Below, one piece after another: positions 24,882-28,175 of a stretch of DNA of 32,893 bases. Origin of the DNA: Dehalococcoidia bacterium (lineage in GTDB: Bacteria; Chloroflexota; Dehalococcoidia; GIF9; AB-539-J10); assembly GCA_030615625.1 (NCBI GenBank), contig JAUWYX010000011.1:1-32893 (forward strand), read 5' to 3'. A program made the position numbers and the translations under genes. The number at the start of each line of letters is the position of its first letter. Position 1 is the stretch's first letter. Under the pieces are notes generated by a model that was not told the DNA's origin, did not search any database, and saw only the letters and a list, made by a program, of their open reading frames with translations.

Positions 24882-25961
24882 CTAGACGTCTGGAGGCGGT
24901 TCGGTTCGAGGCAGTACCTTAGCCAATTCTTCAAAAAGATGCTGCTGGTTTTTATCCAGGTGTTGTGGAGTTATTATAGCTACTTTGACGAGCAAGTCTC
25001 CTCTTCCCTTGCCATCAATATAAGGGATTCCCTTACCTTTAAAGCGAAAGGTTTTCCCATTTTGAGTTCCTGACGGTATTTTTAAATCTACCTTCCCATC
25101 TAAAGAAGGCACTCTTACCTCATCGCCCAAAGCAGCTTGAGCAAAATTGATGGGTAACTCGTAAAGAATGTCACTGCCATCTCTATGGAATAAATTGTGT
25201 GGCTTTACTGAAAAAGTGACATAGAGGTCGCCGGGGGGGCCTCCATATAAGCCAGCACTTCCCTCTCCATCCAAGCGTAATCGTTGCCCATCATCCACAC
25301 CAGCAGGAATTTTAACCATTACCTTGCGCTTCACCTTTATTCTTCCCCTGCCCCGGCATTGAGAACAAGGATTGCTTATTACAGTGCCACTACCTCCACA
25401 GCGAGAGCAAGTGGTGATATGAGTGAAGCGCCCAAAAATACTTTGCTGAACTCTCCTCACTTGCCCTGTGCCGCGACAATCAGGGCAGGTCTCAGGATTT
25501 GTCCCTGGTTCGCTGCCAATGCCATGGCACGAAGGGCAGAACTCGATGCGTTGTATTTCAACTTCTTTACTACAGCCGAATACCGCCTCCTTAAAGGAAA
25601 GAGTGAGGTGACTTTGTAAGCTGTCCCCCCTCTGTGGAACACGCTGAGCAGTCCGTCCAAAGGGGGTGTTAAAACCACCGAAGAAAGATTCAAAAATATC
25701 TCCCAGTCCGCCAAAGCCAAAATCGGGAAAGCCTCCTGCAACATCTATTGTGCCATAGCGATCATACCTGCTCCTTTTCTCGGTGTCGGAGAGAACCTGG
25801 TAGGCCTCGTTTATTTCCTTAAATTTCTCCTCGGCTCCTGGCTCTCTATTGCGATCAGGATGGTACAGTTTCGCTAACTTGCGAAACGCCCTCTTAATTT
25901 CCTCATCACTAGCGTTTCGAGGCAATCCCAGCACTTCATAATAATCTTGTTTTATCGCCAT
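24882..25961 (-). CDS. dnaJ: Chaperone DnaJ (full-length, type I)
   Basis: The protein has 359 residues: J domain with HPD at 34-36, a Gly/Phe-rich linker ([21 protein letters not shown]), then the complete zinc-binding domain with four CxxCxGxG repeats (Cys142/145, 159/162, 185/188, 199/202) and a C-terminal substrate domain. It stimulates the ATPase of DnaK and binds unfolded proteins. The stop lies 7 bases from the convergent gpsA stop. No Shine-Dalgarno sequence of normal spacing is seen (AAAGG is 2 bases from ATG), which fits the near-leaderless promoter at 25970-25999. dnaK and grpE are not in the window. Confidence 0.95.
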
Positions 25962-26059: not shown

Positions 26060-26605
26060 GTGAAACAGCAAATTGAAAAAATCCTCCGTCATCATAAGAA
26101 AAGGAAAATCACCGGCGGAAACCTTAAGACTTCAGCCGTGCTTATACCTCTTTTTTATAACCAAGGCCAATATTATGTCCTGTTTACCGAAAGGAGCGAC
26201 GAGGTAAACTTTCACAAAGGGCAGGTCTGCTTTCCCGGGGGGACTCACGAGCCATCTGATTCCAGCTTACTCCAAACTGCCCTCAGGGAGAGTGAAGAAG
26301 AGATAGGTTTAGAGGCTAAGAATATTGAAATTTTGGGGGAGCTTGACGATATGCTGACCTTTGTCACTAACTATGTTATTTCGCCTTTTGTTGCCTTCAT
26401 ACCCCATCCTCACTCTTTGAGGACCAATGGCAGAGAAGTCAAGGGAACCTTTTCTGTTCCCCTGTCATTTTTGATGGATGAAGCCAATTTCAAGCAAGAT
26501 TCTTACGCCTATGAATATGAAGGGCATATCATCTGGGGGGCTACCGCGAGGATTTTAAGACAGTTCATCGATTTGTTGAAATCTGAGAGCGGGGCCCTGC
26601 AATAG
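26060..26605 (+). CDS. NUDIX hydrolase, CoA pyrophosphatase-like (NudL family)
   Basis: The protein has 181 residues. The core Nudix helix is LLQTALRESEEEIGL (70-84) with the metal-binding REsEEE, preceded by QVCFPGGTHEPSDSS, the combination typical of NudL/CoA pyrophosphatases (UPF0035), which cut CoA to phosphopantetheine and adenosine diphosphate. GTG at 26060 is the first possible start; an ATG at 26052 is out of frame. No ribosome binding site is visible. The stop (TAG, 26603-26605) directly abuts the stop of the convergent hsp20 gene. Confidence 0.85.
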   Translation: MKQQIEKILRHHKKRKITGGNLKTSAVLIPLFYNQGQYYVLFTERSDEVNFHKGQVCFPGGTHEPSDSSLLQTALRESEEEIGLEAKNIEILGELDDMLTFVTNYVISPFVAFIPHPHSLRTNGREVKGTFSVPLSFLMDEANFKQDSYAYEYEGHIIWGATARILRQFIDLLKSESGALQ

Positions 26606-27061
26606 TCATTTCTTCTCTTTAGCCTTGACTTTAATTGCTTTGGGCTTTATCTCTTCGGCTTTGGGTATAGTCAGAGTTAGAACACCATCCTCCATCGTCG
26701 CCTCAGCCTTGTCTGTCTGAAGCCCGCTGGGAAGGACCACGCTTCGGGAAAAAACACCGTAGCGTCTCTCTTGGTACAGGTAGTCTTCTCTCTTGACCTA
26801 CTGTTCCGCTTTGCTCTCCCCCTTGATAGTCAAGGTTTCGCCAGTAATATCAATGCTGACATCCTCCGGCTTCAACCCCGGCAAAGCTGCCTTCACCACC
26901 ATCTCGTTGGGGGTCTGGTAGACATCCAGGGCTGGAGCTTCTGCTCCATCAAGTGTGCTGAGGATGCGCGAGGGTCGGACAAAACTGTCGTCAAACAGCC
27001 TGTCCATTGCCTGTCTCAGGCTCATAAGTTCAGTAAAGGGATGCCATTTCTCTATAGCCAT
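26606..27061 (-). pseudogene. hsp20 small heat-shock protein gene interrupted by one in-frame TAG
   Basis: From ATG at 27061 the frame encodes MAIEKWHPFTELMSLRQAMDRLF... and the first half of an alpha-crystallin domain up to KAEQ, then TAG (26800-26798, codon 88). The same frame continues without shift for 63 sense codons to TGA at 26606: VKREDYLYQERRYGVFSRSV, LPSGLQ, EDGVLTLTIPKAEE, KPKAIKVKAKEKK. Those are the expected second half of the crystallin domain and the C-terminal I-x-V tail, so the full protein would be 151 residues. A single substitution (for example GAG to TAG) explains it. The 87-residue product lacks the dimerisation strands and is unlikely to work as a chaperone. TAG also ends other genes here (NUDIX, hspR), so general codon reassignment is unlikely; sequencing error remains possible. 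AGGAGG precedes ATG. Confidence 0.88.
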
Positions 27062-27083
27062 TTATCTCGCCTCCTTTCTTTGT

Positions 27084-27102
27084 ACTGAGCCCCACTCTCA
27101 GT
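27084..27102. promoter_or_regulatory. Inverted repeat ACTGAG-N7-CTCAGT in the hsp20 leader
   Basis: ACTGAG (27084-27089), CCCCACT, CTCAGT (27097-27102), perfect arms. It lies just downstream of the predicted hsp20 transcription start (about 27105). The 7-base spacing is that of the HspR operator HAIR, although the arm sequence differs. It could also fold as an mRNA hairpin. Confidence 0.45.
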
Positions 27103-27111
27103 TCAGTTAAT

Positions 27112-27140
27112 ATTATAAGAAAGTTAAACAATTTTGACAA
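27112..27140 (-). promoter_or_regulatory. Promoter of hsp20 gene
   Basis: On the minus strand: TTGTCA (27140-27135), 17-base spacer, TATAAT (27117-27112). Its -35 box overlaps the -35 box of the opposite dnaJ2 promoter. Confidence 0.7.
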
Positions 27141-27157
27141 AAAAATTAAACAATTTT
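27124..27157. repeat. Two TTAAACAATTTT direct repeats in the divergent heat-shock promoters
   Basis: Perfect 12-mers at 27124-27135 and 27146-27157, 22 bases apart (about two helical turns). The first lies in the hsp20 promoter spacer, the second in the dnaJ2 promoter spacer, so one regulator could cover both promoters. Confidence 0.7.
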
Positions 27158-27162
27158 ATAAT
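27134..27162 (+). promoter_or_regulatory. Consensus promoter of dnaJ2-hspR-clpC operon
   Basis: TTGACA (27134-27139), 17-base spacer, TATAAT (27157-27162): a perfect sigma-70-type match. Transcription would start near 27169, about 20 bases before the ATG. A promoter this strong needs repression, consistent with HspR encoded in the operon. Confidence 0.8.
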
Positions 27163-27188: not shown

Positions 27189-28175
27189 ATGGCAGGCAAG
27201 GATTATTACCAGATTCTAAGTGTAAGTAGGAATGCTTCAGAAAAGGAAATCAAGCAGGCCTACCGCCGTTTGGCTCGCAAACACCATCCTGACCTCAACC
27301 CCGGCGACAAATCGGCTGAGGCAAAATTTAAGGAAATAAATGCGGCTTATGAAGTCCTCTCTAGTCCTGAAAAGCGAAAGAAGTATGACCAATTTGGTGA
27401 ACAATGGGAATATGCTGAGCAATTTGCTAAATCCGGGGGGCAAGGACGAGTTAGGTGGGATTTCGACAGGGGTGGCACAACTTTCGAATATGGCGACCTG
27501 AGCGGCTTTGGCAACATTTTTTCAAGCTTGTTCGGCGATTCTGGTATAGGCTCCAGGATGAGGCGTGGACCACGACGTGGTCAGGATATAGAGTCCCCCA
27601 TCGAGGTAACTCTTGAGGAGGCTTACCATGGCTCTATGCGTGTTATACAGCTTCAAACCGAGGAGCCCTGTACAGCTTGTGGCGGCACGGGCAGAGTGGG
27701 CAATCGAGTCTGCACTATTTGCAATGGTGCTGGTGGGAAAGTAATTCCCAAGCGACTGGAGGTTAAGATTCCAGCGGGAGTTAGAGATGGTTCGAGGATT
27801 CGTATAGCAGGGGAAGGCGGGCCCGGCCGTGCCGGGGGCAACAAGGGCGACCTCTATCTCGTAGCGAAGGTTCTGCCCCATAAGCTCTTTGAGCGCAAAG
27901 GAGATGACCTTTACACTGAAGTCTCAGTGCCTTTAGCAACCGTCATGCTGGGTGGCGAGGTCGGATTGCCCACTTTGAATGGCAATCTATCTCTTAAAAT
28001 TCCACCGGAGACTCAGAACGGCAGGGTTTTCCGCATGGCAGGGAAGGGCATGCCCCAGCTAGGCAATAGCAAGTACGGCAATATGTTCGCCAAGGTAAAA
28101 GTGGTTCTGCCCACCAATTTGACCGAGGAGGAAAAAAAACTATTTGAGAGATTGCGGTCTCTGCGACCAACATAA
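27189..28175 (+). CDS. DnaJ-family co-chaperone with short zinc finger (DnaJ2/CbpA-like)
   Basis: The protein has 328 residues: J domain with HPD at 33-35, Gly-rich linker ([18 protein letters not shown]), a reduced zinc site with only two CxxC pairs (Cys161/164 in PCTACGGTG and Cys175/178 in VCTICNGAG) instead of four, and the DnaJ C-terminal domain ending [18 protein letters not shown]. It is the first gene of the HspR operon, and differs from the full dnaJ at 24882. It probably works with DnaK in heat-shock recovery. AGAGAAAAGAG precedes ATG at 27189. Confidence 0.92.

Follow-up and report, generated by a model that had tools for sequence, protein, structure and literature searches.

A probable young nonsense mutation in the sole hsp20 gene of a Dehalococcoidia genome, within a genus where this gene is repeatedly lost

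The window, i.e., the whole stretch of 32,893 nucleotides that was analysed, carries a gene for a small heat-shock protein (sHsp), hsp20, on its minus strand, running from 27061 to 26606. The sequence-only reading had described an hsp20 gene cut by a single in-frame TAG and was silent on strand; read on the plus strand, 26606–27061 is not the hsp20 gene. Once the minus strand is read, the described anatomy stands. The translation (MAIEKWHPF...SKAEQ*VKREDYLYQ...IKVKAKEKK*) contains exactly one internal TAG, at codon 88, and no frameshift; the same frame stays open for another 63 codons until a TGA that abuts the neighbouring gene, and the downstream half holds both of the named signatures, LTLTIPKA and IKVKA. 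The TGA (26606–26608) touches the TAG stop (26603–26605) of the convergent nudix hydrolase gene. The features of the locus are collected in Table 1.

Table 1. Features at the hsp20 locus, in coordinates of the window.
Feature	Position	Strand	Basis
hsp20, codons 1–87 from the ATG; N-terminal arm plus the initial part of the alpha-crystallin domain	26801..27061	-	translation, Pfam match
In-frame TAG, codon 88 (CTA on the plus strand)	26798..26800	-	Glu (GAG/GAA) in 17/17 aligned orthologues
hsp20, second part behind the stop (63 codons and TGA); remaining alpha-crystallin domain and IKV (I-x-I/V) tail	26606..26797	-	translation, Pfam match
Ribosome-binding site AGGAGG of hsp20	27070..27075	-	sequence, alignment with relatives
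Hairpin ACTGAG-AGTGGGG-CTCAGT, presumed 5' leader of hsp20	27084..27102	-	genus alignment
Promoter-like site of hsp20, TTGTCA-17-TATAAT; TTGACA box of relatives lost by upstream deletion	27112..27140	-	alignment with relatives
Divergent promoter-like site of dnaJ1, TTGACA-17-TATAAT (12/12); -35 overlaps the hsp20 -35 through the deletion	27134..27162	+	alignment with relatives
nudix hydrolase gene, convergent, intact, conserved neighbour; tree marker	26060..26605	+	alignment, Pfam
dnaJ1, intact, conserved neighbour; tree marker	27189..28175	+	alignment, Pfam

Read across the stop, the frame matches the Pfam HSP20 family (PF00011) with 84.6 bits against a curated cut-off of 20.8. Taken alone, the first half matches profile positions 2–41 (27.7 bits) and the second half positions 44–101 (50.4 bits). 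Solved structures matched by the protein include HspA (6ewn) and Hsp16 (3w1z), and its nearest named sequences belong to Dehalococcoidia or Chloroflexi genome bins. Like Hsp20/alpha-crystallin sHsps, the gene encodes the full domain and an I-x-I/V tail across the stop; unlike them, it carries TAG at codon 88, so that no uninterrupted frame covers the whole HSP20 domain and only about 41 of the 102 profile positions would be made as written. It is the sole Hsp20 match in the window's genome (G000; 1.62 Mb, 19 contigs, a 96.7% complete bin), and a search for the gene on plasmids gave no match. The MerR/HspR-like regulator, dnaJ and clpB genes around it are all intact. A pair of dnaJ genes (27189–28175 and 24882–25961) flanks hsp20 and nudix, one of them with a full CXXCXGXG zinc-finger domain and the other mostly without that region (20.8 bits, below the Pfam cut-off).

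Comparison with related genomes, which the sequence-only reading had proposed, was informative about both the stop and the gene. The TAG replaces a conserved glutamate: codon 88 is GAG or GAA in all 17 aligned orthologues, with GAG in the nearest intact ones. As in a nonsense pseudogene, the stop is missing from the orthologues and lies inside a conserved domain. Besides the stop, the hsp20 of G000 has only two unique residues, A41E and V54M. When codon evolution was modelled along the species tree, the window branch had an omega of 0.25; omega = 1 is rejected there (p = 0.0004), and the difference from the background is not significant (p = 0.22). Because there are only these two unique residues and omega = 1 is rejected on the branch, the mutation is probably recent relative to the split from the nearest relative. 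As to relaxed selection after the stop, an omega of 0.25 that does not differ significantly from the background would be expected if the stop is young, and the well-conserved second half fits a young mutation, as it would fit readthrough too.

Wherever contigs of genus members span the locus, they show the order hspR-dnaJ1, hsp20, nudix, dnaJ2, and at this fixed site hsp20 is broken differently in six relatives. In G017, the nearest relative of the window's genome (DnaJ1 96% identical), the first ~72 codons are deleted. G001 has a 2-bp deletion near codons 84–87, G010 an extra C near codon 29 together with AAG in place of the ATG start, and G002 an inserted base near codon 84 that shifts the frame, together with a change of ATG to ACG. 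In G019 and G007, near-complete deletions with different junctions have left just a few codons at either end. Some of the relatives' indels lie in or near homopolymers, that of G010 in a C-run and that of G002 near a G-run, and might partly reflect faulty assembly; such an origin is harder to reconcile with the lost start codons or with the deletions in G017, G019 and G007. Apparent stops in the hsp20 homologues of G020 and G026 were rejected as lesions, being normal gene ends. A second, different Hsp20 is present in G001 and G007; a search of G019 (99% complete) found no Hsp20 at all. Outside the genus, in another family of the same order, hsp20 has an internal deletion in G056 (L179) and is reduced to a C-terminal remnant in G053 (L180).

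Most of the losses within the genus belong to the clade of the window's genome. In a tree of dnaJ1 and nudix, G000, G017, G010, G019, G001, G007 and G011 form one clade (94.7/83 support), within which some nodes are weakly supported, notably the placement of G010. Six of the seven members of this clade are without an intact hsp20, G011 alone having kept one, as against one of ten scored members elsewhere in the genus (G002; Fisher p = 0.0037, not corrected for relatedness). Judged from codon substitutions, selection on hsp20 is weaker in the window's clade than elsewhere in the genus, with an omega of 0.24 versus 0.14 (p = 0.007); for broken tips, omega is 0.25 versus 0.14 (p = 0.009).

Overall, this hsp20 is very probably a nonsense pseudogene of recent origin and belongs to a series of separate losses of an sHsp that the genus can do without. 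A point mutation would have turned the Glu88 codon, most likely GAG, of the sole hsp20 into TAG. Translation is predicted to end within the alpha-crystallin domain; the 87-residue product would lack the rest of the domain and the C-terminal I-x-I/V tail, and from this anatomy the function of the small heat-shock protein has presumably been lost. Such losses would have occurred repeatedly and independently in the genus, mostly in the window's clade, under weaker selection, and the remaining heat-shock genes (dnaJ, the MerR/HspR-like regulator and clpB) presumably suffice. Of the three interpretations offered by the sequence-only reading, i.e., a very recent nonsense mutation, an assembly error or regulated readthrough, the first is supported by the replaced glutamate, the two further unique residues, the rejection of omega = 1 and the losses in six relatives, and regulated readthrough is not. 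An internal restart behind the stop was considered and rejected, as the first in-frame ATG comes only far into the second half and a GTG sits in mid-domain, yielding no sensible second protein.

An unlikely alternative is that the TAG stems from a faulty assembly or consensus, or from a minority allele, with the Glu codon and an intact gene in the population. The TAG is known from one assembly, which comprises 19 contigs, a single base makes up the entire difference, and the remainder of hsp20 is conserved, all of which would suit such an error. However, no internal stop interrupts any of 20 essentially full-length ABC ATPase domains in this genome, so that stop-making consensus errors are not common in it, and the fact that close relatives have independently lost just hsp20 makes a genuine stop far likelier a priori.

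Programmed or suppressor-driven readthrough of the TAG, yielding full-length Hsp20, is extremely improbable. As in UAG readthrough by pyrrolysine or suppressor-tRNA systems, an in-frame UAG is followed by conserved codons; the 63 downstream codons retain the domain, and the low omega on the window branch points the same way. Unlike in those systems, the stop at codon 88 occurs in none of the aligned relatives, and readthrough would have to be an innovation of this one species. Nor was the machinery that the sequence-only reading had suggested looking for found in the genome. No tRNA with a CUA anticodon was present among its tRNA matches (ARAGORN; genome 96.7% complete), three weak tRNA-like matches not being called tRNAs by that program. 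The PylS N-terminal family TIGR03912 gave no match, and the C-terminal family TIGR02367 reached at best 28 bits against a cut-off of 178, with control genomes likewise under the cut-off. Release factor RF1 is present, TAG is an ordinary stop that ends five of the 26 main genes in the window (the frame then closing within 3–25 codons), and the RNA fold behind the stop is no stronger than in shuffled sequences (z = -0.24). The more specific proposition that useful readthrough occurs at the UAG of codon 88, perhaps more so in heat stress, and sets a low, controlled sHsp level in this species alone, is likewise very improbable.

It is very unlikely, finally, that the 87-residue fragment is a functional shortened chaperone: sHsp N-terminal arms are able to bind clients, and the start codon and ribosome-binding site of hsp20 are intact, but the fragment reaches only Pfam position 41 of 102 and no relative keeps the first half by a shared truncation, the lesions elsewhere taking away the 5' part or all of the gene, or shifting the frame at other sites.

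The reading as a young nonsense pseudogene agrees with precedents in the phylum, and the loss of hsp20 by a nonsense mutation is an ordinary kind of event. HSP20 is depleted in genome-streamlined SAR202 of the Chloroflexota (PMC11994032), and in the Anaerolineaceae an Hsp20 orthologue occurs only in thermophiles (PMC10937449). As in those cases, an Hsp20 gene is absent inside a group whose relatives keep one; unlike in those cases, separate lesions that differ from species to species lie at one syntenic site, so that the loss is caught under way. A full-text search of the literature found no account of this genus. In this genus, a chaperone gene has been lost time after time from its constant place next to dnaJ, through a stop, a frameshift or a deletion, leaving some species without any intact Hsp20. 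The dispensability of sHsps thereby becomes testable by comparing the habitats (temperature, stability) of species that lost the gene with those of species that kept it.

Upstream of hsp20, the promoter that the sequence-only reading had taken to be still intact is so only in part. Most relatives have two separate divergent promoters for hsp20 and dnaJ1, each with TTGACA-like and TATAAT-like boxes. In the window's genome, ~36 bp between the divergent -35 boxes are missing relative to the aligned relatives, and with them the original -35 box of hsp20. A promoter-like match persists: the -35 box of hsp20 is now TTGTCA (one mismatch), which is the dnaJ -35 box read backwards, at 17 bp from TATAAT. 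To judge from the alignment, this upstream deletion may be a second, milder lesion. Between the -10 box and the ribosome-binding site, a hairpin with a 6-bp stem lies in the presumed leader. A role as a regulon-wide operator was rejected, as the hairpin occurs as a single copy in the genome within three mismatches, and covariation in it did not exceed that in shuffles. It is conserved genus-wide (90% mean column identity) and has been kept in G019 and G007 despite the deletion of hsp20.
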